Part shown: piece by piece, positions 5,202 through 46,073 of the stretch
How positions within the stretch are numbered: the first letter of the stretch is position 1
Layout of the letters: the number at the start of each line of letters is the position of its first letter
Source of the DNA: Balneolaceae bacterium
GTDB taxonomy: Bacteria > Bacteroidota > Rhodothermia > Balneolales > Balneolaceae
Direction: 5' to 3'
NCBI GenBank assembly: GCA_034521445.1
Contig: JAXHMM010000003.1
Coordinates: forward strand, 496,001 to 560,000
Length of the DNA: 64,000 nt
The notes under the pieces: model-generated
Database searches by the model: none
Seen by the model: the letters and a program-made list of their open reading frames with translations, nothing else
What the model was told of the DNA's origin: nothing
Program-made: the position numbers and the translations under genes

Positions 5202-6282
5202 GTGCCAATAATATCCTCTACATCTCTTCTATTAGTATTGGGACTGGTGGTAATGAACTACCTGTTTTACAGGTGGTTTATCGCTTATGCAAAAAAACTG
5301 CGGTATGACGGATGTTCCTACCCACACAAAGCTCGCATTCTCATCCCATTCCCAGCGGTGGGGGCATTGGATTTGGCGGGGCGGTGATTGTTGCAATGGT
5401 GCTATGGATTCTGGTACATACGGGGCAGAGTTTGAAGTATCCCATTATCGCTACGCTGTCTGCGATGAGCATGTTACTGATTACCGGCTGGTGGGATGAT
5501 CATTGGAGATTAACACCGGCTTTCCGGTTTGGTGTATATTCGCTGGCCGCTTTAAGTGTGATGTATACGATTTCGGCCTAGAGACCTTCTATATTCCCTA
5601 TTTTGGGTGGGTGCAAACCGGAATCGTTGGCTACCTAATGGTCTATCTCTGGTTAACGGGATGGATGAATGCCTACAATTTTATGGATGGCATAGATGGG
5701 ATTGCGGCAAGCCAAGCTGCTGTTGTTGCCATGGGATGGTCCTATTTTGCATTGAAAGTGGGATGCCCCCTTGATTTTAGCATTCAATGTTTTTTTGCTA
5801 ATCAGCATTGGCGTCTTTCTAATCGACAATTGGTTGCCCGCGAAAATTTTTATGGGAGATTGCGGTAGTGTATTCTTGGGATTCACCTTCGGGATGATGC
5901 CATTTCTGGCGTCTGTTCAGGTAGAAGGTTTGCAAGCGGGATATGCTGTTTGGCTGGCTGCGGTTATGCTTTGGCCTTTTCTCTTTGACCCGTTCTATAC
6001 CTTTATTGCCCGACTGATTAATGGGGGAAAGGTTTTTATACCCCATCGGACACATCTATATCAAAGATTAAACCGCTTGGGGTGGTCTCATGCCCATATA
6101 ACCTTATTTTATACCGCTTTTTCTGTTTGTACTTTTTTTGGAGCAATCCTTTTTTGAAGAGGGAGGAGAATGGATGCGCCAATCCGTTGGTGGGGTGCTC
6201 ATCGTACTATCGATCCTATTCGTGTGGGTCGTTAGGTTGAAAGAAAACCGTACTTGTACAGGGCGGGAGGCCCATCCTTAAG
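5202..6282 (+). CDS. Undecaprenyl-phosphate glycosyl-1-phosphate transferase, WecA/MraY family (several frameshifts)
   Basis: An integral membrane enzyme that starts glycan assembly by moving a sugar-1-phosphate onto undecaprenyl phosphate. Visible landmarks are YPHKARILIPFP with a glycine-rich loop near 5350, the paired-aspartate segment NAYNFMDGIDGIAASQA at about 5670-5715, and FMGDCGSVFLGF at about 5850-5885. Nearly all remaining sequence is hydrophobic and about ten membrane segments are expected. Breaks occur near 5340, 5575, 5770 and the T run at 6149-6156. Reading through the last gives a tail to 6282 (WMRQSVGGVLIVLSILFVW). GTG at 5202 is the chosen start. It sits at the 3' end of the AT-rich transferase operon. 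Confidence 0.78.
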
Positions 6283-6337
6283 ATTTTTACTGTCACTAAG
6301 TTATATATTCTTGTTTGATTTCAATTATTAGGTTGCA

Positions 6338-7119
6338 TTACAATTTTTTGTAACCAAATAGATTAAAAATTGGTCGCTCGTAGTTGTAAATCAGTTCAAG
6401 CAGTCGCTGAGGTGTAATATGCCCTGAAAGTTTTGGGAGTCGCATGCTAGCAGATTGATCTCGATCCATCGAATAAATGTGACTCAGTTTGTTTTTAGAA
6501 TACCCCACTTTTTTAAAGCTTCAAATAATTCATTATTTAAATTTTCCATTTCGAGAAAAATTATATCGGATTTGGTAAGATCGGGTTGTCTTTTCCGCAG
6601 CAATTCCGAGGAATTTTTATAATACATCTGTATGAACTTGTCGGTATCGATGCCATATTCTACTTCATAACCCGATTGTTTCTTGTACTCTACACCCTCG
6701 ATGAAGAAGGGTAGAAATTCACTGAAGGAGAGATCAGGAAATGCGGGATATTTCCTTTTAATTTCAGCCATATCCATGGCTGGGTATTTTTTCCACCAGC
6801 CGAAGTGATACAATGACACATATCGGTCGTAAGGATTACGTACGGAGAAGAGATTACAGGTTTATCCTGAAAGCGGTCGGGGAGATCCGTAATGAAATTT
6901 GTGCTGACTGGGAAATACACACAATTCTCCATTTCGGCATGCATCTGATTGGCGTGCGGTAAAATTTGTAGTAGTAAAAATCGCTCAAAAAGAAAAGTTT
7001 GTATAGTTCTCAGCAGTTCGACAAGTACGGGATGGTACATTTTCTGGAGGGCGCTTGTCACGAAAGTACCCCCCGTCTTACCCATGTGAAGAAATACGTA
7101 GTTTGTCCGTCAATACCAT
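6338..7119 (-). CDS. Sulfotransferase family protein (several frameshifts)
   Basis: Read on the minus strand from ATG at 7119. The 5'-phosphosulfate loop is HMGKTGGTF (about 7085), and the 3'-phosphate segment is SVRNPYDRYVSLYHFGWW (about 6800-6850), reconstructed across a break. The last part of the protein (SKNKLSHIYSMDRDQSA to NLFGYKKL) lies beyond a break near 6496 and ends at 6338. Roughly 260 aa in total. It should transfer sulfate from PAPS to a glycan hydroxyl. It is the only minus-strand gene of the first 12 kb and is convergent with the WecA-like gene. Four breaks are needed, so the exact residues at the joints are uncertain. Confidence 0.62.
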
Positions 7120-7223
7120 TGCGCGATCAATTTTGCAAGTTGGCTTCCGCATTTATGGCGCAGAAAACGAACTCAATTTGTACATTTTAGGTTGAATACC
7201 CAACACGTGACCATGCGTTGTCC

Positions 7224-7856
7224 ATGCTGATATCGAGGGAACACCAGTTTATTTTTATTCATCTCTACAAGACAGCGGGAACCAGCATCAAGCAGGTATT
7301 GCGGCCCCTTATCGTGAACGGGTGGGAATGGGCGGCCGCGCGGGCGCTGAAAAAGCTCAAACTGCCGGTGCCGGCCTCCATGGATCCAACGCCCTATCCC
7401 GAGCACGCTACGGCGGCGGAGTTGCGGTCAGCCATGGGACCAGAGGCGTTCGACCGCAAATTCTCCTTCGCCTTCGTGCGCAATCCCTGGGACTGGCAGG
7501 TATCGTTGTATAAATACATGCTGAAAACTCCCGCTCACTTCCAGCATGAAAAAATCCGCCGAATGGATAATTTCAAAGAATACGTATTCTGGCGCTGCCA
7601 GGAGGAAGTGCGGCTTCAGAAAAACATGATCTGCTCGGAGGAGGGGGACGTACTGGTCGATTACGTGGGCCGGTTCGAGCGGCTGGAAGAGGACTTCGCG
7701 GAGGTCTGCCGACACATCGGCCTGCCGTCGCTCAGCTTGCCTCGCACCAACGTGTCCAATACCAGGCCCTATCGTACTTTTTACGATCGGGAGAGCCGGA
7801 AGTGGGTGGAGGAGGCCTTTGCCCCCGATATCGAGATGTTCGGCTATGAATTTTGA
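7224..7856 (+). CDS. Sulfotransferase (Sulfotransfer_2-like), intact
   Basis: An intact protein of about 210 aa. FIHLYKTAGTSIKQ is the 5'-PAPS loop and SFAFVRNPWDWQVSLYKYML is the 3'-phosphate-binding segment. VDYVGRFERLEEDFAEVC is the conserved late helix of carbohydrate sulfotransferases of the chondroitin/dermatan type. An in-frame TTG at 7218 is an alternative start; ATG at 7224 is preferred. It is the first GC-rich gene after the AT-rich block and stands alone before the DegT gene. The likely job is sulfation of the surface polysaccharide made by the cassette; the acceptor is inferred only from context. Confidence 0.82.
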   Translation: MLISREHQFIFIHLYKTAGTSIKQVLRPLIVNGWEWAAARALKKLKLPVPASMDPTPYPEHATAAELRSAMGPEAFDRKFSFAFVRNPWDWQVSLYKYMLKTPAHFQHEKIRRMDNFKEYVFWRCQEEVRLQKNMICSEEGDVLVDYVGRFERLEEDFAEVCRHIGLPSLSLPRTNVSNTRPYRTFYDRESRKWVEEAFAPDIEMFGYEF

Positions 7857-7895
7857 ACTAAATGTTTTTCATTTACCCCCAAACAGGATTTGATT

Positions 7896-8995
7896 ATGAG
7901 CATTTCCCTTTTTGACCCGTCACCGGAAATTTCCGAGCTGCGGGATGAGATTGACGAGGCTATTGGCCGGGTCCTCTGACCACGGGCAGTTTATCCTGGG
8001 TCCTGAAGTTCGGGCAGTTCGAGGAAGATGCCGCGGACTACCTGGGTGTCAGGCACGCTGTGGGCGTCAGACTCGGCACCGACGCCCTGGTGATCGCTCT
8101 GGAAGCCGCTGGGCATAGGGGAAGGGGATGAGGTGCTAACGAGTTCCATGTCCTCTCCGCCTCCGCCGAGTCGATCAGCCAGGTGGGCGCCAAGCCGGTA
8201 TTCGTGGATATCGATCCCGACACCTATAACCTGGACGCAGCGGACGTGGAGCACCGCATCACCGAGCCGCACAAGGGCCGATCTGCCGGTGCATCTCTCG
8301 GCAGGCCGGCGCCTATGGGCGCTTGCGGGGCTGGCCGAGAAACATGATGCTCCGGATTGTCGAGGATTGCGCCCAGTCATTCGGGGCGGTCGACGACGGC
8401 GACTAGACCGGCGCCATGGGGGACCTGGGGTGCTTCTCCTTTTTCCCCACCAAGAACCTGGGGGGTATCGGCGACGGCGGCCTGATCACGACCGATGACG
8501 ACGAACTGGCGGAAAAAGCCCGGATGCTGAGGGCACACGGGGCGCACGACAAGTACCGCAACCAGATGCTCGGGTACAATTCGCGCCTCGACACCATACA
8601 GGCTGCGGTGCTGGACGTGAAATTGAAACATATCGACGACTTCAACGCCGGACGGCGGAGGGTAGCCGAGCGCTATTCAGAAAGGTTGTCAGAGATCGAT
8701 GAAATCGTCACGCCTCCTGTCACCGGCGGGCACATATTTCACCAGTACACCATTCGCGTCCGAAACGGCCGGAGGGATGCCCTCAAGGGCTACCTCAAGG
8801 AGAAAGGCATCTCCTCGAAGATCTATTTCCCCCTTCCCCAGAACGAACTGCCGGTCTACGAGGAGAAGGGATATCGCCCTGCCCCAGGCCCGCAGAATGT
8901 CCGAGGAGGTGTTGAGCCTGCCGATGTGGCCCCAACTGGAAGAGGAGGCTATTGACAAGGTGGCCAATGAAATAACGTCCTTCTTCGACCGGTAG
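7896..8995 (+). CDS. DegT/DnrJ/EryC1/StrS sugar aminotransferase (many frameshifts)
   Basis: A PLP enzyme that aminates a keto-sugar nucleotide. The joined frames give about 365 aa: N-terminal MSISLFDPS, then TTGSFILGPEV, GVRLGTDALVIALEAAG, AKPVFVDIDPDTYNLD, and the lysine-bearing FSFFPTKNLGGIGDGG at about 8436-8482. The C-terminus is LPMWPQLEEEAIDKV to 8995. Breaks are visible at short G runs; for example the g triplets at 8012-8014 and 8111-8113 have one g too many for the conserved reading. The K-N-L-G motif resembles WbpE/DesV-type enzymes. The neighbouring RfbA suggests a dTDP-linked 3- or 4-amino sugar, but the regiochemistry cannot be assigned. Confidence 0.75.
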
Positions 8996-9107
8996 CGCTG
9001 GAAACGGGAGATTTGCCGGGAATCTGCGCCGCTTGGCAGGTATGAGACAGAAAGCTTAAGTTCGGTCTTCACAAGATTTATGCAAATAAGACCCTGAGAT
9101 GACGCCC

Positions 9108-9980
9108 ATGAAGGAATTCGTACTGGCCGGCGGCAGCGGAACCCGACTCTATCCCATCACCAAGGGGGTTTCCAAGCAGCTGCTGCCGGTATACGACAAA
9201 CCGATGATCTACTACCCGCTCTCGGTGCTGATGCTGGCGGGCATACGGGAGATCCTGGTGATTACCACGCCGGAAGACCGGCAGAGTTTTAAGAAGCTGC
9301 TGGGCGACGGCTCCGAGTGGGGACTGGAGCTGTCGTATAAAACCCAGCCCGAGCCCAAGGGCATCGCCCAGGCTTTTACGCTGGGAGCGGAATTTATAGG
9401 GGAGGACCCGGTATGCCTGATTCTGGGGGACAATATTTTCTACGGTCGCGGATTTACGGAATTGCTGCAGAGGGCGGCAGGCCGGCCGGGAGGGCGCCAC
9501 GGTATTCGGCTACCAGGTGCGTGACCCCGAGCGCTTCGGCGTGGTGGCCTTCGACGAAGACCGCAAGGCCGTCTCCATCGAAGGAGAAGCCGGAGAAGCC
9601 CCGGAGCAACTACGCCGTCACGGGCCTCTATTTCTACGACAACCGGGTGGTCGAGATGGCTCGCGAACTGGAGCCCTCCACCCCGGGCGAGTACGAGATC
9701 ACCGATCTCAACAAGGCCTACCTGGAGCGCGGAGAGCTGCATGTGGAATTGCTGGGCCGCGGTTTTGCCTGGCTGGACACCGGCACCCACGACGCTCTTA
9801 TGGAGGCCGGGCAGTTCGTGGAGGTGATCGAGCGTCGGCAGGGCATGAAGATCGCCTGCCTGGAGGAGATCGCCTGGCGCAAGGGCTGGATCTACGGACC
9901 GGGAGGTCCTGGGGCGCGCCGAAGAGCTGGCCAAGACCTCCTACAGGGACTACCTGAAGGAGCTGGTCAGCCCGTCCTGA
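9108..9980 (+). CDS. rfbA: Glucose-1-phosphate thymidylyltransferase (frameshifted)
   Basis: Makes dTDP-glucose from dTTP and glucose-1-phosphate, the first step to dTDP-rhamnose and dTDP-amino sugars. The nucleotide-binding signature is [20 protein letters not shown] at the N-terminus, followed by [49 protein letters not shown] and [12 protein letters not shown]. From ATG 9108 to the stop at 9978-9980 there are about 290 codons, the usual RmlA length, which favours 9108 over 9099. Breaks lie near 9475-9500, 9580-9600 and 9900. It follows the DegT gene on the same strand. Confidence 0.85.
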
Positions 9981-10151
9981 ATCGCTGGCATTCCTGCACG
10001 AAGCTTTACGGGATGGTTGGAAGGGGCACTACGTGGTGAGCTTCCCAATACGCTATACCACCCGGCAAAACCGGAAGAGGACAGGGGGAGGTGGCAGGCG
10101 CTGCGGCACTACCTGGAAAAACCGGCAAACGGGGGCATAATTTTGCCATAG
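9979..10151 (+). pseudogene. Remnant of a second copy of the 299-1116 family
   Basis: Directly after RfbA, translation gives [16 protein letters not shown] and then, after a skip in the middle, LPNTLYHPAKPEEDRGR up to a stop at 10149-10151. These match [13 protein letters not shown] and IYHPVKPE in the gene at 299-1116. The segment between the two motifs (about 50 residues in the other copy) is missing, so this is a deleted fragment and not just a sequencing error. Same strand as the first copy. It marks the far edge of the polysaccharide cassette. Confidence 0.6.
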
Positions 10152-10242
10152 GCTGCAATCCAGCCGTTTGTTATTGAATCTCTATGGTATCCTGCGTACA
10201 CTGCGCAAGCGTCAATTTCTTCTAAATATCATACTACGATCC

Positions 10243-10900
10243 GTGAGAAAATCATTTCAGGCCTGTCTGTTATCGCTTTTTTTGTGCCTGCCGTTGTGCG
10301 CCGCCGCCCAGAATTTCGGTGTAGGTTTCAGGGGAGGGACCACCGGGTTGGGTGCGGATGTGATCGGTTCCATCAACGAGTCGTTGAATGTCCGCCTGGG
10401 AGGCTCCTATTTTCCCTATTCGCATGACATGATCATTGAGGATGCGGACGTGGATGTGCGTTACGAGGGAGAGGTAAAACTGATGTCCTTGTCGGCCATT
10501 CTGGATTGGTACCCATCCCAATCGGCCTTCCACCTGAGCGGGGGGATAATCTCACAATGGTACGCAGGGCACCGCTACAGGTCTGCCCATTGAGAATTAC
10601 GAATTCGGCTCGCGTACTTTCAGCCCGGATGAGCTGGGATCATTATCGGCGGAAGTGGGGTATGAATCGAACATCGCACCTTATGTGGGACTGGGATTCG
10701 GTAATCCTGTGCAAGGCAGCCGGGCCCTGGGATTGTTTGTCAGGCTTGGCGTGATGTACACCGATGCACCCCGCTTTGACATGCAGGGTGAGGGTTTGAT
10801 CGCCCCGACCGCCAACCAGGACGAGGATATAGAGGAGGGCTTGCAGGATTTCAAATGGTACCCGGTACTTAATCTCGGATTTTCCGTAAAGATACGTTAA
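10243..10900 (+). CDS. Outer-membrane beta-barrel protein (one frameshift)
   Basis: A signal peptide (VRKSFQACLLSLFLCLPL ending CAAAQ) precedes glycine- and aromatic-rich alternating strands: NFGVGFRGGTTGLG, LNVRLGGSYFPY, and, after a break near 10575-10590, EVGYESNIAPYVGLGFGN and LGLFVRLGVMY. It ends in a terminal strand (LNLGFSVKIR). About 215 aa after joining. GTG at 10243 is chosen because the signal peptide starts there; in-frame codons continue upstream. The function of these small FCB-group barrels is unknown. The next gene, a lipoprotein, follows 24 bp downstream. Confidence 0.6.
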
Positions 10901-10923
10901 CGCCATACCCTCAGATGCAGAAC

Positions 10924-12556
10924 ATGAAAGGACGGAAACCTACTTTTTTACCAGCTCGATACGCTGCATGACCGCTGCACTGCTGATGGTCGCCCTTGCG
11001 GCAGGGTGCGATACCACCCGGCTGAACAACGCCACTGGATGATTTCAACGTGGTTATCGGCCTTGATTCCGTCGAAACCACGGTATCGGGACAGTTTTTG
11101 GATGCCCGTACGGGCGAACTCATCGAACAGCCGCTCACCGTTACCTTCCAGGGACCCAACGCCGATGATGTGATCGACATGTTCAGCAAGCCCATGGACC
11201 GGCAGGAGATAGACGGCGGACTGGCCTCCTTCGGTTTGCGCAACAGCCTGAATTTGTCGGAGGAGTCGCCGGCCAGGGTAACCGTGGTGGCGGAGTCGGA
11301 TGGATATATCCCTACCGGCCGGCCGGTCACGGTGAATTCGGAAGGGGAGACCACCTTTATCGTGTACATGATCGATCCCGGAAATCCGCCCGCGGGATCT
11401 GCCGTTCGCAGTGAGCGTAGCGGTGAGGCGGGATCGGACGGAACGGTTCAGCAGGATGTCACGGTAGGGTCCGGTACCGAACAGCAGAGCAGTGCCCGGG
11501 CCGCCATACAGCTCAGCCAGGGCACGGTGGTGCGTGATGCCGACGGCGGAACCCTGAGCGGTCCGCTGACGACCACGCTGGGCTATTTCAACAACAGCTC
11601 GGGCCCGTCCCTGAGGTCGTTTCCGGGCGGCGTGGAAACTCCGGAAGGGGAGAACCTGGTTACCGCCGGCTACACCTCCATTGAAATCGAGGAATCCGGC
11701 GGCAGCGAGGCGGCCACCTTTTCGCAGCCCGTGCAGCTTACCGTTGACCTTCCGTCCGGCATGACGAATCCCGGCACCGGTCAGCCCATTCAAGCCGGCG
11801 ACGATATCGACATCTACAGCTACGATACGGACCAGGCCAAGTGGGTCCATGAGGGATCGGCCACGGTGCAGGGCCCCAGGGCCAACGGCAACTACTTCGT
11901 GGAATACCCGGTCGATCACCTGTCGTACTGGAGCCTGATTTTTCCCGGCGTCCCGACCTGCACCTCCGGCGCATCGATTACCATTAATCGCAGCGGGAAC
12001 ACGGGTCCACTCCAGGCGACCTTGCGTGCGGAGGGATTCAGCAAACACCTGACCATACCGGCGGGTGTCAGCACCATCTCTCTTCCCGATGACCTCAAGC
12101 TGGGCAGCGTACCGGCGCTCGATGCAACGCTGACCATTCGTACGGAAACGGGCGAGAGCACGCAGACGGGCAACCTGTGTTCCGGCAGCTTTAACATCGT
12201 TCTGGCGCAGGCACCGGACGAAGCGTCGGATGTTACGGGCAATGTCACGCTTCAATGTCCCAATACCGACGAGTATGTTCGCATGACCAGCATCCCGACC
12301 GCCACGGTGAAGTACCGCAGAACCGACGCTTCGGAGGGGACTACCTGGGATACGGCCACCGACCTGCAGTGGGACTATCAACGAAGAGGAGCACCGCCTG
12401 GATGGAGGCAGCTTTTCCGTGCAGGGCGTGACGGACGGGGCGGACTACGATTTCAAGATCTTCTACGACGGGGATACCTATACCCGGGAGGCCATCACGG
12501 TAACGGCCCCGGAGACCTCCTATACCGAAGTGGTCAGCGGGGACAGCTGCAGCTGA
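10924..12556 (+). CDS. Surface or periplasmic lipoprotein with Ig-like/beta domains (frameshifted)
   Basis: From ATG 10924 (MKGRKPTFL) a break in the T run near 10942-10950 leads into MTAALLMVALAAGC, a lipobox with the acylated Cys in LAAGC. The body is a long acidic beta-rich chain (DVTVGSGTEQ, YDTDQAKWVHEGSATV, VDHLSYWSLIFPGVPTC). The last segment, after a break near 12375-12400, is SFSVQGVTDGADYDF and ends at 12554-12556. About 540 aa. DHLSYWSLIF resembles C-terminal parts of Bacteroidota carboxypeptidase-regulatory/Ig-like lipoproteins. The specific function is unknown. Probably co-transcribed with the beta-barrel gene upstream. Confidence 0.55.
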
Positions 12557-12621
12557 GGTTTTGCTCTAGCCGGCTGGCCGGCCTGGCTCTTCGGCGGCCC
12601 GTGCTTTAGCGGGCCCGTGCG

Positions 12622-13870
12622 TCAGCTTGCCTTGCTATTCGGCGGCAGATGCGGCCGGAGCGACAGGTAGGCCAGCAGGGAGCCCAAGGCGACGGAGATG
12701 ACGGCCCAGGCCAGGATGGTCTCCATGGTAACGTTGCGGTCGAGCAGCCAGCCCATCAGCGCGGGACTCAGCGCGGTGCTCAACACCATGAGTGTGGCGA
12801 AAAGGGATCGCACGCTTCCGATGACCTCCTCCCCGTACCGCTCGGCCCACAGCGCCGACTTGATCGGGCTTCCGGCCCCCAGGGTGAGTCCCATAAGCGC
12901 CATGTAGAGGAAGGCCGACCAGTCGCCCGGGTGGTACCAGGCCACGGCCAGGCCTGCGCCGAGTGGCAGCAGGTGGTAGGGAAAGAGCCTGGCGGCGCTC
13001 CAGCGATCGATCAGGGGACCAATTCCGAGGGAACTCGTTATACGCGCGACGGCAAAGGCGGTAAAGGCTGTGGCCAGCAGGGCGGCCGTCCACCCGAATT
13101 GTTCGGCGATGGAGATCTGGTACAGAAAGAGTGCCGTCACCCAGAAGGAAGGCAGGATGACGGCGGGGACCAGCAGCCAGAAGCGGAGATCGGACACCAT
13201 CTTCCGGTAAAAGGGGAAGGTAGGGCCTTTGGCTTTTTTATTGGACCCGTTTGCCCGGCCGTTTGCCCGTCCTTTGCCCGTTCCTTTGCTCCGCCGGGCG
13301 CTTCAGAACGACCGCCAGGAAGGGGATGAAAACGAAGGCGATGACTCCGGCAAAGATCAGCCAGATTTCCCGCCAGCCCAGGATGGTGAGCAGTCCTGCT
13401 ATGAGCATAGGGAAAAAGGCCTCGCCCAGTGGGTAGCCCAGTCCCACGATGCTGAGGGCTTTACCCCTTCGGACGGTAAATTGACGGGCCATGGCGGTCT
13501 GGGCCGTGTGGCCGCTGAGTCCCTGTCCGGTGAGGCGAAGCAGCAGGAGGGCCGCGAAGAATACCGCCACATGCCAGGAGAGCGCCAGAAGAAGGCTGGC
13601 CGCCAGGAGTCCCCCGGCCACCAGGTAGCTGTAGCGTTTCAATGGCAGGCGGTCGATCCCGCCGCCCAGCCAGGGCAGGGTGGCTGCGCTTCCGAGGGTC
13701 GCCAGGGAGTAGAGGGTGCCGAAGGCGGCATTGGAAAGCTGAAAATCCTCCAGGAAATGGGGCACGAAGAGCGAAATGAGGAAGGTCTGGCCGAAGCTGG
13801 CAATGAAGGTGAAGGAGAGGCCGAAGGTCAGCATCCTTTTTTCCCGGAGGGCGAAGGCAAGATAGTTCAC
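12622..13870 (-). CDS. Major facilitator superfamily transporter (one frameshift)
   Basis: The minus-strand start MNYLAFALREKRMLTFGLSF is at 13870. The first half (six membrane segments, conserved LPWLGGGIDRLP loop) ends in a Lys/Arg-rich linker with a small repeated QRNGQRTGKRPGKR stretch near 13240. The second half (SDLRFWLLVPAVILPSFWVT onward) is in another frame and stops at 12622. Twelve membrane segments in total and about 415 aa are typical of MFS. Substrate unknown. The gene is convergent with the lipoprotein gene, 66 bp apart. Only one break, in the linker, is required. Confidence 0.75.
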
Positions 13871-13970
13871 GGGAATGCGGCGGGGGGCTTGGGCGGGTAG
13901 CTGTTGATGATAATCACGTTCGTGGACGGCAAAGATAGGCTATTTCGCGGCTTTAATAAACCGGAATCGG

Positions 13971-14075
13971 TGGGCTATTTGGTCTGCCTCCGGGTAGTTG
14001 CTGACGCCCATCGACACCTACCAGGGAAAGCCAATCCTATGCCCGCCAGACTCTGGCACTGGTCGTATTTCCACG
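13971..14075 (-). repeat. Diverged partial copy of the batB 3' end
   Basis: About 85-100 bp here match 15451-15550 (the end of batB) with scattered substitutions and single-base indels; for example both contain gttgctgacgcccatcgaca. Read on the minus strand this copy encodes a VSNYRRQTK-stop ending if one C is dropped. That is a more natural BatB C-terminus than the run-on at the main gene. The two copies are in the same orientation and bracket the HTH/Fic/hypothetical island at 14.3-15.4 kb. The flanking bases 13871-13970 and 14076-14298 hold no gene I can recognise. Confidence 0.6.
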
Positions 14076-14298
14076 CCTGTAAGGCATCTTCCCATCTTGT
14101 GAGTCACATAGCCTGTATCAGGATTTTTGTTGTAATTAATTAACCTATAGATTAATTTGTTTTGAAACGTACCTGCTTTTGAGATAGATAGAAGCCAATC
14201 TGCACATAAAATACTGTATGTAGACGAGGCGAACGCGGAAGAGAAGCCAAGAGCCTGGATACCAGATTCAGGGAATATTATAAATCGGATCGGAGGGT

Positions 14299-14711
14299 AT
14301 GAATATGATTTCGAAAGTTGAGGAATTGAAGCGCCGATTTCAGCGGCTCGATCAATTTGAAAGCAGGGAAGACGAAATTGAATATGCGGAAATGGTGTCC
14401 AGTGTTCAGCTTTCTGAGTGATGTCCAGCGGGAACTTGATAGAAGAAACTGGACTAGAAAGAGGCTGGCCGGGGAGATCGGAGTTTCCGAAAGCTATTTA
14501 TCTCAAATTGTTCCATGGTGAAAAAGTGATCAATCTGGAAACCATGGTCAAAATTTCCAAGGCTTTGGATACTGAGTTTGAACTGAGAATCTCCCCGAAG
14601 AATCAGTCAAACGGTAAGAGAAGCCCATGGCTCAAATGGATCTTTGGATATGATCTCCCGGTAATGTTTAATAGTTGGGTAGCGGGTACGCTATTCAACG
14701 CTTACCGTTGA
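14299..14711 (+). CDS. XRE-type HTH protein, antitoxin-like (frameshifted)
   Basis: From ATG 14299: MNMISKVEELKRRFQRLDQF, then, after a break near 14395, FLSDVQRELDRRNWTRKRLA and GEIGVSESYLSQ. After another break near 14510 comes LFHGEKVINLETMVKISKAL. The helix-turn-helix is RKRLAGEIGVSESYLSQLF. The architecture (about 100-135 aa, N-terminal helix plus HTH_3) is that of antitoxin-like regulators. No toxin gene is directly attached; a Fic fragment follows 55 bp later. Two breaks are needed. The C-terminal tail after ISPKNQS is of uncertain reading. Confidence 0.55.
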
Positions 14712-14765
14712 ATAACATAGATTTTCAATATAAAGGAAGAAAGTAATCGATTTTCACGATATTGT

Positions 14766-14994
14766 AGCCGCATTTCGCCGTTACACCTTACCGGAAAACC
14801 CGTCCCGGAGCATATCTCCGCCCGGTGGCAGGACGTCCCCGACCTGATCGAGGAGTTGTTGCAGGCGGAAAAACAATTGTTCGAAGGAGACTTCGATACC
14901 GTTCTGGTCGATGCCCTTTTTGCCTTTGGATTCGTCTTCATCCATCCTTTTGCGGATTGGAACGGTCGTAATTCACCGTTATGGAAGAAAAATA
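14766..14994 (+). pseudogene. Fic-domain fragment
   Basis: The frame reads ISPLHLTGKPVPEHI, ELLQAEKQLFEGDFDTVLVD and FIHPFADWNGR. The last matches the Fic AMPylation motif HPFx(D/E)GNGR, with Trp (tgg) in place of the first Gly (ggg/ggt). Only the segment up to the motif is visible; the helices that normally follow are missing. No start codon with a signal is evident. It is therefore a remnant of a Fic protein, next to an HTH antitoxin-like gene, and part of the island bracketed by the two batB 3' ends. Confidence 0.6.
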
Positions 14995-15117
14995 CAGGGA
15001 GTTGTTCGAGCTGTAGCCTGACGGCGATACGAAACTGGCGTTCTGCTTTCGTATCTTACCTGCGCATTCACGAATTCGATGCACGTGAAGCCGCAACCGA
15101 AAACCAATATTTGTTGA

Positions 15118-15439
15118 ATGACGACCCTATCTATAGCAGACGAGACGAAACCGCTCCAGGAGGTCAGCCTGGACTGGATAGTCAGCACCATCAGCCGGAA
15201 TCGGATCATGGATATCCGGAACTGCGTGGTGGTGGAGATTGAGTCGGAGAAGGTGGATCTCCGCCTGACTGCCAACTGCGAGGATCAGCGGGAGGCCACC
15301 TCTTCCAATGAGTTTGAAAGCCGCATCGTGTTTCTGTGGCAAGACCTGGTGTTGGGTGAAGGACGACCTGGATCCGCATGCGCTCTATGATTTTCTGAAG
15401 CGCATGGATCAATGGGTCGCCTATGAGCCCAAAAAATAG
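15118..15439 (+). CDS. Small hypothetical protein (one frameshift)
   Basis: MTTLSIADETKPLQEVSLDW starts at 15118. The frame is coding-like (EIESEKVDLRLTANCED, FESRIVFLWQDLVLG) and, after a break near 15350-15358, continues as DDLDPHALYDFLKRMDQW to the stop at 15437-15439. About 106 aa, acidic, no membrane segment. I do not recognise the family. It overlaps, on the opposite strand, the run-on tail of batB, which supports the idea that the batB tail after 15450 is not native. Confidence 0.4.
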
Positions 15440-16480
15440 CCTTTTGGCGGGTTATCGTGGTCTGTCTCCGGTAGTTGCTGACGCCCATCGACACCACCAG
15501 GAAGGCCAGTCCTATGCCCGCCAGCCACTGGTACTGGTTCTTGTAGTCGGCGTACTCCTGGCTGGCGAATTCGCCCTGCTGCAGCTCGTCCAGCCTCCCC
15601 AGGAAACGGTCGATACTCTTACCGCCTGTATCGATGGCGTAGTACTCTCCGCCGCCCTGCCCGGCGATGTCGCGTAGCACCTGCGGCTCCAGCCGGGTGG
15701 TGACCACCTGTCCCTGTGCGTCGCGCTTGTTGCCGATGAGCGTGCCGCTCTGGTCATAGAGCGGGATGTTGGCGCCGGAGGTGGTGCCGATGCCCACCGT
15801 GTAGATGGAGACGCCCATGGAGGTCAGGGCATCCAGCTCCTCGCTGTAACCCTCCCCATGGTTCTCTCCGTCGGACATGATGAGCATCACCTTGGCGGCC
15901 TCGGTGGAGCCGCTCTCCTCGTCAATGGATTCAAAGGCCTGGCGGGCGGTTTCCATGGCTGCGCTGAAGTCGGTGGAGGTGGAGGGCATCTGGTCGGAAT
16001 CCACGATGTCCAGGAAAAGACGCATGGCGGAGTAGTCCAATGTCATGGGGGTCTGCAGGTAGGCGTCACCGGTAAAGACCACCAGGCCCACCCGGTCGCC
16101 CTCCAGCCGGTCGACCAGCCGGGAAATTTCGTATTTGGCCTTGTCCAGGCGGCTGGGCCTGACGTCCTCGGCGTTCATGGAGGCCGACAGGTCCAGCGCC
16201 ACCAGCAGATCCACGCCCTGGCGCTGCACCTCGCGCACCTCAGTGCCTAATTTGGGTCCCGGCGAGGGCGATAGCCAGGAAGAGGAGTCCCAGGTAGAGG
16301 CTGGCGGACCGGATGGTCTCGCCGGTGTCCCAGTAGCCGCGGCGCAGTTTTTCAAAGAGGCCGTCCTCGAAGTACTGCTCGCGCTTTTGGTGCAGCTTGC
16401 GGCGGTACCACCAGATGCCGGCCGCCAGGGCGGGAATGAGCAGTAGAGAACCAGAGGTAATGAATGTTTTGCCAGATCAT
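15285..16480 (-). CDS. batB: BatB-like von Willebrand factor A protein (frameshifted; altered C-terminus)
   Basis: The minus-strand ATG is at 16480 (MIWQNIHYLWF). Two N-terminal membrane segments follow, reconstructed across breaks near 16430 and 16250. The VWA domain has the MIDAS motif DLSASM, and TGDAYLQTPMTLD and MIMSDGENHGEGYSEE are typical of BatA/BatB. A third membrane segment (WLAGIGLAFLVVSMGVSNY) ends the family homology at about 15460. The frame then runs on into unrelated sequence to 15285. In Bacteroidota, Bat proteins sit in the inner membrane with MoxR ATPases and are linked to stress tolerance. The DUF4175-like gene lies upstream on the same strand. Confidence 0.75.
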
Positions 16481-16580
16481 GCTTTAAAGTCTAATAAGTC
16501 TAGTAAGTCTTAAAGTCTAGAAGTCCAGAAGTCGGAAGTACCGCCTCCCCCTTCTCTACCCCTCCCCCCAGAGGCTCTGA

Positions 16581-37625: not shown

Positions 37626-38450
37626 ATGAGCCGCATCGCCTACGACCCGGTAAAGGATCGATTCGCCCGCATCATCCGATCGTCCCGCCTCCTCCGTACC
37701 CTCTTCTACAAAATCCTCGACCTCTTTTTCCTGCGCTCCTGGTACATCCGCCGGGTGCTGCGTCGCGAGGGAGGGCGGCTGGACGGGGAGGGGCCGTGGA
37801 CCCTGCTGGACGCCGGGTCGGGCTTCGGGCAGTACGACCGTTTTATTCTGCGGGAGTTCGACCGGGTGTTGGTAACGGCGGTGGACGTGAAGGAGGACTA
37901 CCTGGAGGATGCGCGCAGGTATTTCAGGCGGGAGATCCGGCGCGGACGGATTACGCTCAACCAGGCCGACCTGCTCAAGCTGAACTCCCCCGATGCCTAC
38001 GATTTCGTGCTTTGCGTGGATGTGCTGGAGCATATTGAGGAGGACGTGCGCGTGATGCGCAATATCGCCGGGGCGCTGAAAGAAGACGGGCTTTTCCTGA
38101 TGCATTCGCCCTCCATCTACTCGGAGGAGGACGCCGAAGGGGAGGAGAGCTTTGTGGACGAGCACGCCCGCACGGGCTACTCGGAGGAGGACCTGCGCGT
38201 AAAGCTGCGCGAGGCCGGCCTGGAACCCGTGGAGATCTCCTATACCTACGGGCGGAAGGGGCACCGCGCCTGGGAGTGGATTATTAAATACCCCATGCTC
38301 TGGATGACGCGCTGGCGGCTCTGGGCGCTGCCTTTTATGGCCGTCTGGTATCTGTTTGTGCTGCCGCCCGCCCTGCTGCTGATGCGGCAGGACATGGAGG
38401 AGGAGAAGGAGTGGGGCACGGGGATTTACGCTTTGGCGAGGAAGGGGTAG
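37626..38450 (+). CDS. Class I SAM-dependent methyltransferase, membrane-associated (intact)
   Basis: Intact, 274 aa. Motif I is WTLLDAGSGFGQYDRFILRE, and AVDVKEDYLEDA is the acidic strand-2 loop. FVLCVDVLEHIEEDV is motif post-I/II and LKEDGLFLMHSPS is motif III. It lacks obvious Rieske or metal sites. A late hydrophobic stretch (LWALPFMAVWYLFVLPPALL) suggests membrane contact. Together with the GT2 gene just upstream it probably modifies a lipid-linked sugar; the substrate is unknown. Confidence 0.82.
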   Translation: MSRIAYDPVKDRFARIIRSSRLLRTLFYKILDLFFLRSWYIRRVLRREGGRLDGEGPWTLLDAGSGFGQYDRFILREFDRVLVTAVDVKEDYLEDARRYFRREIRRGRITLNQADLLKLNSPDAYDFVLCVDVLEHIEEDVRVMRNIAGALKEDGLFLMHSPSIYSEEDAEGEESFVDEHARTGYSEEDLRVKLREAGLEPVEISYTYGRKGHRAWEWIIKYPMLWMTRWRLWALPFMAVWYLFVLPPALLLMRQDMEEEKEWGTGIYALARKG

Positions 38451-38463
38451 GGGGTGGCTGCTT

Positions 38464-38545
38464 ACCTGCCGGCCTGGATCTTCACCTGCCGGCTGCCGCC
38501 CAGCAGCAGGTAGCTGCCGTCCCCCGTGCGCCGGGAAACATTTTT
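38464..38545 (-). repeat. Diverged copy of the 3' end of the 39389-40708 gene
   Basis: On the minus strand it encodes SRRTGDGSYLLLGGSRQVKI up to a stop at 38465. This parallels FRRTGAGQYLLLGGSRQVSV at the end of the gene at 39389. The match is about 50 bp at roughly four of five bases. Copies have the same orientation and bracket the VapBC-like pair. The rest of 38546-38637 holds the VapB upstream region. Confidence 0.65.
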
Positions 38546-38637
38546 TGATGTAATGGCTGCACTTCTGGCGTATCTCATTTTGTTACCCGTTGCTTGTGCC
38601 TTATGTCATTTCAAGGTAGTTTTAATATGGTGTCAAA

Positions 38638-38895
38638 ATGAAATCATCTCATATGCCTGCCAGTATCACCATCCGTGAAATACCCGATGAGGTACACCGG
38701 CGCTTGAAAGAGCGTGCGGAGCGCCATCATCGAAGCCTCAACAGCGAGATTATCGTCTCCCTGAAGCGGAGTGTAATGAGCCATGAAAGGGATCCGGATC
38801 AGATTCTTGCACGGGCGGATCAACTCAGGAAGAGGATTAAGGGAAGCCTTACCATGGAAGAGATTCAGGATGCCATCGAGGAGGGACGGCCGTGA
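38638..38895 (+). CDS. Antitoxin of a VapBC-like pair (ribbon-helix-helix, FitA-like)
   Basis: Intact, 85 aa from ATG 38638. ASITIREIPDEVHRRLKERA and ERHHRSLNSEIIVSLKRSVM form an Arc-type ribbon-helix-helix as in FitA/StbC antitoxins. The acidic C-terminus (SLTMEEIQDAIEEGRP) would bind the toxin. It overlaps the toxin start by 4 bp (GTGA), so translation is coupled. These operons normally autoregulate. Base composition is less GC-rich than the flanking genes. Confidence 0.85.
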   Translation: MKSSHMPASITIREIPDEVHRRLKERAERHHRSLNSEIIVSLKRSVMSHERDPDQILARADQLRKRIKGSLTMEEIQDAIEEGRP

Positions 38896-39293
38896 TTGTG
38901 GCTGACACCAATGTTCTGGCGGCTGTCTGGATGCCCAGTGAAGAGGAAAGTGTGGTCCGGAAACTGCTTCGTACGGATTCTGAATGGGTTGCACCACGGT
39001 TGTGGCGGTCTGAGTTCAGAAACATGCTGAGTCTCTATTACCGGAAGCAGCTTCTGGACTTTGATACCGCTCTGCAAATCATGCAGCAGGCGGAGGAATT
39101 AATGGATCAGCGGGAGTACGAAGTGCCCTCGGTGCGCGTGATGGGAAAGGTGTCGGATTCCTCCTGTTCCGCTTACGATTGCGAATTCGTCGCCCTGGCC
39201 GAAGACCTCGACATAACGCTGATCACGTTCGACCGCAAGATCCTGAAAGAATTTCCGGGAATTGCACGCACTCCGGAATCCCATCTGGCCTAG
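38892..39293 (+). CDS. PIN-domain ribonuclease toxin, VapC-like
   Basis: Intact, 133 aa from GTG 38892. Acidic PIN residues are visible: MIVADTNVLAAVW (first Asp), WRSEFRNMLSLY (Glu), SAYDCEFVALAEDLD (Asp, Glu) and LITFDRKILKEFPG (last Asp). PIN toxins of this type cut tRNA or rRNA. With the antitoxin it forms a complete TA module inserted between the methyltransferase gene and a diverged 3'-end copy plus its parent gene. Confidence 0.88.
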   Translation: MIVADTNVLAAVWMPSEEESVVRKLLRTDSEWVAPRLWRSEFRNMLSLYYRKQLLDFDTALQIMQQAEELMDQREYEVPSVRVMGKVSDSSCSAYDCEFVALAEDLDITLITFDRKILKEFPGIARTPESHLA

Positions 39294-39388
39294 TTGCTGG
39301 TTAGGCTTGCCCATGCCTCCCGTATTAACCCCGCCAACAGGACTCTTTCAGAACGCGACCTATAGCCTCATCTGCCAACGGTTCTCGC

Positions 39389-40708
39389 TCAGAACGAGGT
39401 GCGTACGGATACCTGCCGGCTGCCGCCCAGAAGCAGGTATTGGCCGGCGCCTGTGCGCCGGAACTGTGGGCGAAAGTCACCGCTGAAGCCCAGGGATGTG
39501 CCCATCTCGGCGCTTGAAATGCTGCCGGCGCCCAGGTCGATGGCGTAAAAGCCTGCGTTACCGAGCATGCCTGCGCGCTCGCTGAAGTTGCCGGTGAGTC
39601 CCACAATGGTTTTATCTTCCGGGAAGTACTGCGCGTGGTAGAGGGGGTCGCCGAAGCTGGCGCTGCGCACGCGCTCGCCGGTGAGGGTGGAATAGACGAT
39701 GGCGCGTCCGGGTGACCATGCCACCAGGTATTCCGCGCTGCCCGAGAGGTTGGCGCCGGCAAGCTCCTCGTCGGTGGTTACAGCTGCGATGGTGTTGCCG
39801 TAGCGGTCGAGGATGTGCACGCGGTCGTCGGTGCCTTGCGCGCGGGTGACCAGCACCATGAACTGCCCGTCGTCGGAGACGTCGGCGTAGATGATGGTGC
39901 GGTCCTGGCTGTAGAAGATGGATTCGAATTCTGGCTGCGTGATATTGCCCTGCTGTTGCCCGCCCTGCTGTTGCCCGCCCTGTTGTTGCCTGCCTCCGCC
40001 GGACTGCTGCCCGTTCACGGCGAGCCGCTGGGCGCCTGATCCCAGGCTGCCGCTTTCTGTCTTGATCTGTGTGGTATAGAGCATGAGGGTTCTGCCCGAA
40101 GGGTCGGCGGCCACATGCGGCATGGTGGCGCCGCCCGATCCCTGGCTGCCTCCGGAGAGGGAAAGGGAGGAACGGCCGAAGATGTCGTAGCCGGTGAAGG
40201 TGCTTATGTTGCTGCGCACCCAGAGCGAGCCGTTGTCGCCCGGGAAGAGGGCGAGGGATTCGTCTCCTGCGGGGGTGGAACCCAGGGAGTAGCTGGCCAG
40301 GGTGTCGCCGGTTGTGTTCATGATCAGGGCGCGGGTGCCTCCGGCGGTAGCTCCGGTGCCGGCGCCAGCGTTTCTGTTTGTAGTTCCGCCATCCTGCGCC
40401 ATGGCCACCACCGAAAGGCCGGGGGAGACGCCCCAGGCTTGCACGTTGTTGATCTCGGTGCCCGTAGCGAGGAAGCGCACGGTGCCGTCAATGAAGCTCA
40501 CCTCCCCGCTGTCGAGGGCGTAGGTGGCGGGGTTGTTGTCGCCGGTAGGCGTCTGCACGGAGAGGTCGAGGTCCTGGGCGATTGCCTGCTGGGCCGGCAA
40601 AGCCAGCAGGGCTGCGAATAGAACGGCCAGGGAAAACGTCAGGCTATAGGCAGCGATCGTTCTGATCAGACCGTGGATGCAGATGAGGCCTTCGGGGTGG
40701 TGCCGCAT
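39389..40708 (-). CDS. Secreted beta-propeller-like protein with Gln/Gly repeats (intact)
   Basis: Start at ATG 40708, because the signal peptide (RTIAAYSLTFSLAVLFAALL ending QQAIAQ) begins just after; an in-frame extension to 40834 is probably not translated. About 439 aa. The body has repeated strand-turn units (IIYADVSDDGQFMVLVTRAQ; AEYLVAWSPGRAIVYSTLTG; LYHAQYFPEDKTIVGLTGNF), as in WD40/PQQ-like propellers. A low-complexity QQQGGQQQGGQQQG insert lies near 39960-40000. No catalytic motif is seen. Function unknown. Confidence 0.6.
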   Translation of the reverse strand: MRHHPEGLICIHGLIRTIAAYSLTFSLAVLFAALLALPAQQAIAQDLDLSVQTPTGDNNPATYALDSGEVSFIDGTVRFLATGTEINNVQAWGVSPGLSVVAMAQDGGTTNRNAGAGTGATAGGTRALIMNTTGDTLASYSLGSTPAGDESLALFPGDNGSLWVRSNISTFTGYDIFGRSSLSLSGGSQGSGGATMPHVAADPSGRTLMLYTTQIKTESGSLGSGAQRLAVNGQQSGGGRQQQGGQQQGGQQQGNITQPEFESIFYSQDRTIIYADVSDDGQFMVLVTRAQGTDDRVHILDRYGNTIAAVTTDEELAGANLSGSAEYLVAWSPGRAIVYSTLTGERVRSASFGDPLYHAQYFPEDKTIVGLTGNFSERAGMLGNAGFYAIDLGAGSISSAEMGTSLGFSGDFRPQFRRTGAGQYLLLGGSRQVSVRTSF

Positions 40709-40818
40709 GGAGTGGTTCTTGTAATTCCGGTGATTGAAAGTGGGGAATATACCGGAATTGGGGCAAGTAGAAAAAGGGACTTGGTCTGGAATATCTGGCT
40801 GCCTCGCCCCGGTGGGTT

Positions 40819-40874
40819 CACCAGACGAGATCACTCACCAGACGGGATCGCTCACCAGACGGGATCGCTCACCG
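40819..40874. repeat. 17-bp tandem repeat over the osmC stop codon
   Basis: Three units of tcaccagacgggatcgc (the first with two changes), at 40819, 40836 and 40853, followed by a partial unit. The OsmC stop lies inside the block at 40852-40854, so unit number could change the end of the protein. Confidence 0.75.
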
Positions 40875-43609: not shown

Positions 43610-45282
43610 ACTTTCTGCAACGATATCCCAAGGCGGCCAAGCTGGCCAAGGCCAATTTTCTCGTAGCGTTTATTGCGCTCCTGTTGGGCGGGTTGTTCGG
43701 TTTTATCCAGGCCCTTCACCGCACGGACGTTTTCCGGGGCTTTTTTGACTCTTCCGAGTACTACACCCTGCTGACAGGCCACGGCGTGCTGCTGGCCCTC
43801 GTGTTTACCACCTTTTTCATCATGGGCCTGTTTGTCTGGGGCGTGACGCGCAGCCTGGAGCGCGAGCCTGAGAATATGGCCTATACCTGGAGCTGGTACT
43901 GGCTGATGGTGGTGGGACTCACCATGACTTCGGTGGCCATTCTCGGTGGACTGGTCCCGGGATCTTCGATCAGGGCCGCCGTGCTCTACACCTTTTACCC
44001 TCCCCTGCAGGCCCACCCGCTCTTCTACATCGGGCTGGCCCTGGTGATCGTGGGCACCTGGATGGCGGGGGCCGACTGGTTCCGCTCCTACCTGAAATGG
44101 AGGAAGGACCATCCCTCCGAGCGCATCCCCATCCTCACCTTCATGACGCTGTTCACCATGCTCATGTGGTACGTCTGCACCATCGGCGTGGCCATTGAGG
44201 TGGTGGGACTGCTTATTCCCTGGTCGCTGGGCTGGGTTACGGAGATCGAGCCGCTGCTGCCGCGCACGCTCTTCTGGTACTTCGGGCACGCGGTGGTCTA
44301 TTTCTGGCTGCTGCCTGCCTACTACGTCTGGTACGCCATCCTGCCCAAGCTGAGCGGGGGGCGGCTGTTCAGCGATTCCATGACGCGCGTGGTGTTTATC
44401 ATTTTTCTCATTCTCAGCACGCCGGTGGGGTATCATCACCAGTATGCGGATCCGGGCATCTCGACGGCATTCAAGTTTTACGCCATGGCTACCACGCTGC
44501 TCTTGCTGCTGCCCAGCATGATCACCTTCTTTACGGTGATCGCCTCCATGGAACACGGCGCGCGGCAGCGCGGGGGCACGGGGAGGCTGGCGTGGATCAA
44601 GAAGTTGCCGTGGGATTCGCCCGCGTTTGTGGGATGCGCCCTGGCCGGGGTGATGTTTGCCGCGGGCGGCTTCAGCGGGATGATCAACGCCTCGATGAAC
44701 ATCAACCTGCTGATCCATAATACGATTTGGGTGCCGGGCCACTTTCACCTGACCGTGGGTACGGCGGTGGCGCTGACCTTCATGGCCGTCACCTACTGGC
44801 TGCTGCCGCAGCTCACCGGACGCAAGCTCAAGGACAAGACGCTGGCATTGATTCAGCCCTACGCCTGGTTCCTGGGCATGACGCTGATGTCCAACGCCAT
44901 GCACCGCGCGGGACTGGCCGGGGTGCCGCGCCGCACCTCCGAGCCGCAGTATACGCAGTTTGATTTCGAGCCGGTGTTCGGCACCATGGCCGAAATGCAG
45001 TGGCAGATCGCCATCGGCGGCACCATTTTGACCATTTCACTGCTGCTGTTTCTGTGGGTGGTGGCCCGCACCTGGCTGGCTGGTGAGAAGTCTGACCGGC
45101 CGGTGGACGATCACATTCCCGAGCCGTTGTCGGGTCCCGAGCACACCCCCGCCGTGCTTGATAATATTAAATTGTGGGTGGCCATTGCGGTGGCCCTGGT
45201 GCTGCTGGCCTACAGTTTCCCGCTCTGGGAGATGGTAGCCGACGGCGTGTTTGAACCCGGCTTCCTGCCGCGTCCCTCGTGA
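43606..45282 (+). CDS. cbaA: ba3-type cytochrome c oxidase subunit I
   Basis: Intact, 558 aa, 13 predicted membrane helices. Ligands visible: His of the low-spin heme in LLTGHGVLLALVF; WYFGHAVVYFWLLPAYYVWY with the CuB His and the cross-linked Tyr four residues later; VGYHHQYADPG with the other two CuB His; and WVPGHFHLTVGTA with the heme a3 and low-spin heme His. Proton-pumping terminal oxidase of the B family, usually made under low oxygen. It overlaps subunit II upstream and the next gene downstream (GTGA). Confidence 0.92.
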   Translation: MNFLQRYPKAAKLAKANFLVAFIALLLGGLFGFIQALHRTDVFRGFFDSSEYYTLLTGHGVLLALVFTTFFIMGLFVWGVTRSLEREPENMAYTWSWYWLMVVGLTMTSVAILGGLVPGSSIRAAVLYTFYPPLQAHPLFYIGLALVIVGTWMAGADWFRSYLKWRKDHPSERIPILTFMTLFTMLMWYVCTIGVAIEVVGLLIPWSLGWVTEIEPLLPRTLFWYFGHAVVYFWLLPAYYVWYAILPKLSGGRLFSDSMTRVVFIIFLILSTPVGYHHQYADPGISTAFKFYAMATTLLLLLPSMITFFTVIASMEHGARQRGGTGRLAWIKKLPWDSPAFVGCALAGVMFAAGGFSGMINASMNINLLIHNTIWVPGHFHLTVGTAVALTFMAVTYWLLPQLTGRKLKDKTLALIQPYAWFLGMTLMSNAMHRAGLAGVPRRTSEPQYTQFDFEPVFGTMAEMQWQIAIGGTILTISLLLFLWVVARTWLAGEKSDRPVDDHIPEPLSGPEHTPAVLDNIKLWVAIAVALVLLAYSFPLWEMVADGVFEPGFLPRPS

Positions 45283-46073
45283 GTGACAGGGACGGTTTAT
45301 CCGGCGCGGGCGCCGGCGGTTCCGGCCAGTCTGGCGGCTCTGACCAGTCTGGCGGCTCGCGTGAGCCAGGTTCCGGCCAGTCAGGCGGCTCTGATAACAC
45401 CATGCGGCTGGTCAAGTGGCTGGTGATTATCGGCATCGGCATTCCCGTGCTGGTGGAGGTTTTGACGCTCTTCAACCTGGTGCAGGTTCGGCTGTTTGAG
45501 GGGGAGGACCCCGCCTCAGAGGTGCGCAGCCAAGACCCGGCTGCCGCGACCGACGGCCTGTCCGTGCTGGGCGCAGGCGACCGTCTGACTTTTGAGGGCG
45601 ATGTGCCTGTGCTGCGGCTGGAGGAGAAGATGATAATGGTGGCCCCGGAGGAGTGGCAGTTTACGTTGAGCCTGGCGCCTGACAGCCTTTCTGTTTTATC
45701 CGAGGGTGTGCAATTCCGGTTTTTTGTGGACAGCCTGCGGCTGCGAAGCGGCGAGCTGCTGGAAGGGAAAGGACCTTTTCGCTGGCCGCTGGAGGGAGAA
45801 GGGGTGCAGGGGCAGCCCGAGATTCAGCAGTTTCTCTGGCGGTGGGCTTTTCCGCCGGGTGATTTGCCCCAGCGCGTATTTGTGCGATTTGAGTGGGAGG
45901 GGGGCGCGGTTGTCGGTGCTGCTGGACGTGCCGAGGCCGAGCGGGACAGCGCCGCCGGGGTCGCAGGTATTGCCGAGGATTCCCTCCGCGTGGTTCGCCG
46001 CGAGTTCAGCCTGGGGAATATCCCCACGCGTTACCAGGAGGGCGCTTCTTCCCGTTCCGGGAACCAGCGATGA
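45279..46073 (+). CDS. Uncharacterised single-pass membrane protein coupled to the oxidase operon
   Basis: Intact, 264 aa from GTG 45279, overlapping the CbaA stop. The N-terminus has a repeated GSGQSGGSDQSGGS tract. One membrane helix (LVKWLVIIGIGIPVLVEVL) follows, then an acidic exterior domain (TFEGDVPVLRLEEKMIMVAP; FPPGDLPQRVFVRFEWEGG). I do not recognise the domain. Its position suggests an accessory or assembly factor of the ba3 oxidase. A fragment of the FPPGDLPQR region is duplicated at 46480-46556. Confidence 0.6.
   Translation: MSDRDGLSGAGAGGSGQSGGSDQSGGSREPGSGQSGGSDNTMRLVKWLVIIGIGIPVLVEVLTLFNLVQVRLFEGEDPASEVRSQDPAAATDGLSVLGAGDRLTFEGDVPVLRLEEKMIMVAPEEWQFTLSLAPDSLSVLSEGVQFRFFVDSLRLRSGELLEGKGPFRWPLEGEGVQGQPEIQQFLWRWAFPPGDLPQRVFVRFEWEGGAVVGAAGRAEAERDSAAGVAGIAEDSLRVVRREFSLGNIPTRYQEGASSRSGNQR

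Follow-up and report, generated by a model that had tools for sequence, protein, structure and literature searches.

Introduction

Insertion with long target duplication has been inferred for restriction-modification (R-M) systems in two papers (PMC3874152, PMC3031569), the second of which cites Nobusato et al. 2000 and Furuta et al. 2010 for the original reports. Like the locus described here, these insertions involve an addiction-type unit that lacks a recombinase of its own and is bounded by direct repeats of variable lengths, from tens to ~100 bp or more. Unlike the R-M insertions, the cargo here consists of type II toxin-antitoxin (TA) operons, and the copies are older (75–93% identical). 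How recombinase-less TA modules spread, from one genome to another or inside a genome, is poorly understood. A TA pair can form a genomic islet by itself, as described for ccdO157 (PMC2654758); the locus analyzed here resembles that islet in that the TA pair alone makes up the unit, and here, the duplicated end of a host gene flanks it. The closest known kind is thus the R-M mode of insertion, and the novelty lies in the cargo. If the interpretation offered below is correct, TA operons would join R-M systems among the addiction units whose insertion entails a long target duplication. A long direct repeat at the end of a gene would be a recognizable scar by which single TA insertions could be dated and counted, and whether such scars are enriched can be examined in any set of closely related genomes.

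A VapBC pair between two copies of a gene end

We analyzed a 64,000-nucleotide stretch (hereafter, the window) of a Balneolaceae genome; the features discussed are listed in Table 1, with positions counted from the first nucleotide of the window. The predicted products of vapB and vapC match PF22513 and PF01850, respectively, above the cut-offs. The antitoxin gene lies directly upstream of the toxin gene and overlaps it at 38892–38895, and the acidic residues D5, E41, D96, and D114 of VapC are present, as read by inspection of the sequence. By gene order, overlap, and the PIN acidic residues, this is a predicted type II TA locus of the VapBC kind, and the pair is probably active. The nearest plasmid-borne relatives of this VapC are 45–49% identical to it. 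The GC content is 0.39 in the region upstream of vapB and 0.52 across the entire segment between the repeat copies, compared to 0.62–0.64 in the neighboring genes.

Table 1 Coordinates of the features at the vapBC and batB loci (window positions)
Feature	Position	Strand	Remarks
batB 3′ end, distal copy	13969–14063	-	With indels; ends ...SNYRRQTK-stop allowing one extra base
batB insert	14064–15445	.	GC 0.47; degraded remains of HigA-like and Fic genes
batB 3′ end, proximal copy	15446–15538	-	Frame now continues into the insert
SAM methyltransferase gene, left neighbor	37626–38450	+	Tail-to-tail with the host gene
Continuation of the distal-copy frame to an in-frame stop	38464–38483	-	VKIQAGR-stop; DNA not alignable to the gene
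Distal (outer) copy, gene 3′-end DNA	38484–38534	-	51 nt, 86% identical to the proximal copy
Segment between the repeat copies	38535–39410	.	876 nt, GC 0.52
vapB, FitA-like ribbon-helix-helix antitoxin	38638–38895	+	PF22513, PF03869
vapC, PIN-domain toxin	38892–39293	+	PF01850; GTG start overlapping vapB
Host gene	39389–40834	-	Fast-evolving Balneolaceae gene; no Pfam family found
Proximal copy	39411–39461	-	51-nt repeat within the intact host gene

The intact VapBC pair lies wholly between the two copies of a direct repeat, which align without gaps and are in frame with the C-terminus of the host gene (39389–40834). A search of the whole assembly (3.2 Mb) with positions 38450–38640 as the query retrieved, apart from the query itself (E = 8.5e-96), the partner copy (E = 1.6e-10), whereas the third-best match had an E-value of only 0.012. 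The two copies are therefore the only good matches in the genome, which rules out a chance repeat at the VapBC locus. The observation of the sequence-only reading from which this analysis started, that a TA pair is located between a gene and a diverged copy of the 3′ end of that gene, thus stands, with the repeat now delimited and found to be unique.

In translation, the distal copy reads SRRTGDGSYLLLGGSRQVKIQAGR followed by a stop codon, and the C-terminus of the host gene reads FRRTGAGQYLLLGGSRQVSVRTSF followed by a stop codon. The match between the two that was proposed previously holds, but the stop codon of the distal copy lies four residues beyond the ‘KI’ of that reading, and the continuation of the frame at 38464–38483 holds a second ACCTGCCGG. 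At the DNA level, homology between the copies stops at 38483/39410, that is, 22 nt before the end of the gene, so that the rightmost part of the segment between the copies (39389–39410) consists of the last codons of the gene itself. The change is abrupt, with 8 matches among the adjacent 24 nt past the repeat versus 44 of 51 inside it (Fisher P = 8e-6). The last eight codons of the two copies are wholly different, yet the stop is in the same codon register. In relatives, the gene ends in patterns like LxLRASF; therefore, the gene at 39389, not the remnant, carries the family-like end. Two kinds of specialized repeat were considered for this locus: a diversity-generating template/variable repeat pair was disfavored, given that the differences are not restricted to adenines of one copy and that no reverse transcriptase was noticed, and no match of 38451–39470 to the attC array of the same genome was detected.

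The host gene and its history

The host gene is present in 46 of 58 relatives, where it lies beside clpC, in several of them with a glycosyltransferase gene on the other side; the clpC-linked ortholog is located a few kb from the methyltransferase gene. In the genome analyzed here, clpC directly adjoins the glycosyltransferase gene, 70 kb from the host gene, which is arranged tail-to-tail with the methyltransferase gene. Relative to its usual position in the family, next to clpC, the host gene has thus been displaced by ~70 kb. The encoded protein is 34–38% identical to its homologs in other genera, which is normal for this gene (36–46% between other genera), so that a recent import was rejected; within one genus, the protein differs by 18%. 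No same-genus genome was found in the collections scanned: the scan for close relatives based on the host gene gave nothing, that based on the methyltransferase reached other genera only (at most 68% identity), and these collections contained no uninserted congeneric allele of the VapBC locus.

Similar arrangements at other TA loci

The sequence-only reading had described the same arrangement at batB. The repeat at that gene is real (96 alignment columns, 86% identity, with indels), but the 1.4-kb insert consists of decayed HigA/Fic fragments rather than an intact pair. Furthermore, batB reads through into the insert, whereas what seems to be the former stop codon is retained in the distal copy, which is frameshifted; as judged by these reading frames, the end of the gene is not preserved, contrary to the notion that the end of the host gene is always spared. 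Apart from the frameshifts, the differences in the distal copy of batB are mostly transitions, a pattern that, taken at face value, is that of plain decay of a duplicate.

The sequence-only reading had proposed a scan for duplicated gene ends around TA modules. We took a census of local direct repeats, with a minimum length of 45 nt, a minimum identity of 78%, and a maximum spacing of 20 kb, in an uninterrupted 416-kb part of C3, the contig that holds the VapBC locus, and at the TA loci. The 416 kb contain only six to seven local pairs, with the VapBC pair counted and one simple AAGTC-type repeat set aside. In three of the seven pairs, the copies enclose a TA module next to a gene 3′ end, namely, VapBC, the HigA/Fic remnants at batB, and HigA at the locus L130, and more were detected in related Balneolaceae (see below). 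In L130, the 3′-terminal part of a GSDH-family gene, its stop codon included, is repeated as a 54-nt copy (93% identical), and an intact HigA (TIGR02607) and a toxin fragment lie between the copies. We assigned this fragment (MIRTFGDKTTEDLI...) to the toxin by eye; the HigB profile PF05015 has no match in the genome. At a further locus, L113, an intergenic element occurs twice (178 nt, 92% identity), and its copies enclose MazE/Doc and DUF433/DUF5615 pairs; this locus also has a lone attC-like site. In this genome, the inserts are AT-richer than the host DNA.

Small TA operons between direct repeats are also found within integrons, and the same genome contains an example: at 704–714 kb of the contig C6 (locus L141, offsets ~6000–14800), PIN, ParE, PhdYeFM, and Fic genes lie between ~120-nt attC-like repeats (TAACG...GTTAG), forming a chromosomal integron, or cassette array, of TA modules. 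The integron cassettes differ in that the attC-like ~120-nt sequence occurs there in many copies, and none of the VapBC, batB, and L130 inserts resembles this array (L113 alone does), so that an integron cassette was rejected for these three inserts.

We further sampled 60 PIN loci from genomes of the family, together with as much as 10 kb of flanking DNA per side. Local direct repeats straddle 8 of these loci, compared to 2.9% of the control positions (P = 3.6e-4); when only simple repeat pairs are counted, the numbers are 4 of 60 and 1.8% (P = 0.024). These P values treat the loci as independent and are, accordingly, a guide only. Some of the eight straddled loci represent repeat-rich intergenic families or attC arrays; three are informative (L207, L195, and L209).

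In L207, the 3′ end of a gene, which we take to encode an acyl-CoA-reductase-like protein from its resemblance, is followed by an AbrB-PIN pair, beyond which this 3′ end is repeated up to an identical stop codon (75% identity). Only the two species of the respective genus carry this pair, and 28 of the 30 orthologous loci lack the TA; therefore, the TA is a derived insertion at this site. The insertion is also present in the sister species, where vapC is truncated and the second copy is lacking. In L195, it is the 5′ end of a gene that is duplicated around the PIN module, the stop codon of which abuts the repeat; from resemblance and from its place beside a cas3-like gene, the host gene is presumably cas6-like. 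In L209, a vapBC pair is flanked by a 131-nt, 98.5% identical repeat (9542–9672/10342–10472) that comprises the 3′ end of the toxin gene (vapC) itself and downstream DNA. This fresh-looking repeat could represent either a tandem duplication that has suffered a partial deletion or a scar of circle integration.

Thus, VapBC, HigA, HigA/Fic remnants, and an AbrB-PIN pair are all found in this arrangement at unrelated genes, a recurrence that makes chance unlikely, as had been argued from batB. The suggested route of TA capture with the host gene end kept is supported only in part, however. It applies to a minority of loci, with only 1 of the 14 PIN loci in the genome analyzed here, the VapBC locus, showing the arrangement. 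Neither is it specific to 3′ ends, given that the duplicated DNA is the 5′ end of a gene in L195, the end of the toxin gene itself in L209, and an intergenic element in L113. Nor is the arrangement confined to TA modules: part of the 3′ half of the gene 45279–46073 (plus strand) is repeated downstream (45817–45908/46460–46551), and the two copies (92 nt, 78%) enclose a repeat element that is not a TA module. As in batB, the outer copy at this site ends with a stop codon (RFEWEGDAN-stop), and the gene reads on.

Origin of the duplicated gene end

The reading that we favor, with a probability of roughly 55%, is that VapBC inserted, without a recombinase, at the 3′ end of the host gene and that the insertion was accompanied by a long target duplication. 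Under this scenario, a short unit, comprising little beyond the promoter and the vapBC operon, would have inserted at the end of the gene in an ancestor and, in landing there, duplicated 51 nt or more of that end. The gene would have kept one full end, whereas the outer copy would have become a remnant that lost its outermost part and diverged. Because the copies cease to align 22 nt before the end of the gene, a clean target duplication requires such a later loss of the outer end of the copy. We infer both that the duplication accompanied the insertion and the mechanism of repair: the insertion was probably illegitimate, since no recombinase is encoded, and could have involved repair of a staggered break or template switching during replication, the processes inferred for R-M units with long target duplications. 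Gene ends would be frequent among the insertion sites because gene-destroying insertions are not kept.

The loci share a small TA operon, the lack of a recombinase, repeats of 51–178 nt derived from local host DNA, and inserts that are unrelated to each other. The distance from the end of the insert to the last TA stop codon is 0 nt in L195, 8 nt in L207, and 23 nt in L130. We tentatively extend the favored reading to the family: minimal type II TA operons, from promoter to stop codon and without a recombinase, might be insertion units in Balneolaceae that produce 50–180-nt target duplications and land for the most part at gene ends; this kind of mobility has so far been described for R-M systems.

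Alternatively, the outer copy could be xenologous, if VapBC came joined to the gene end of a related species, or if the gene came with VapBC and left the resident tail behind, in either case, through one-sided homologous combined with illegitimate recombination. With the VapBC and L130 loci combined, the differences between the copies look codon-constrained (8 of 11 in third positions, 9 of 11 transversions), the stop codon has stayed in register behind eight wholly different codons, and the within-genus divergence of the host protein (18%) is similar to the difference between the copies. These sites are few, however, and the excess of third-position changes and transversions appears not to be decisive, given that changes of this kind are expected from the functional copy in any case; the pattern is compatible with both decay and coding divergence. 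The frameshifts and predominant transitions in the distal copy of batB point instead to plain decay of a duplicate, and both copies in L207 fit duplication of the host's own end. Altogether, we consider a xenologous origin unlikely.

The outer copy could also be the remnant of an older tandem paralog, or a leftover of the rearrangement that moved the gene, with VapBC later replacing the body of the paralog. The relocation from clpC to the methyltransferase gene implies that other rearrangements have touched the site, and the in-frame stop of the outer copy is compatible with such a history. A full-length tandem paralog in relatives had been named from the outset as the observation that would refute TA capture; the 46 relatives with the gene contain it as one copy (one or two HSPs), with no sign of a second. 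Moreover, the recurrence of the arrangement at unrelated TA-bearing genes would need repeated, independent loss of paralogs exactly around TA modules, so that this origin, too, is improbable.

Site-specific integration, by a recombinase-borne element that used gene 3′ ends as attachment sites and was later reduced to the TA, is very improbable: the geometry does resemble that of integrative elements in gene 3′ ends, where the gene end is kept, or restored, and the opposite boundary is marked by another copy of it, but the inserts are 0.5–1.4 kb long with no integrase or integrase remnant seen, share no DNA, junction motif, or common attachment sequence, and are not confined to 3′ ends (L195). 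A common mobile element was rejected as well, because the seven inserts share no DNA and have no evident junction motif.

Other repeats and gene pairs

Two pairs of intergenic direct repeats in the window (169–253 nt, 90–92% identical) flank genes other than TA modules: 46094–46346/51231–51482 enclose an ATP-grasp CoA ligase gene and a gene without a Pfam match, and 55101–55269/58305–58470 enclose a TonB-dependent receptor gene. Many intergenic regions contain paired, CRP/FNR-like TTTGTGA-N-TCACAAA palindromes, ~75–110 nt apart (at 16578, 24364, 35170, 41478, 46123, 51250, 55126, and 58330), which are also present inside the L113 repeats. At another locus (L077, 6904–7685), a gene pair that, from its resemblance, we take to be HEPN/MNT-like lies between a cluster of tRNA genes and the glycosyltransferase gene, on the side of the 3′ end of the latter.
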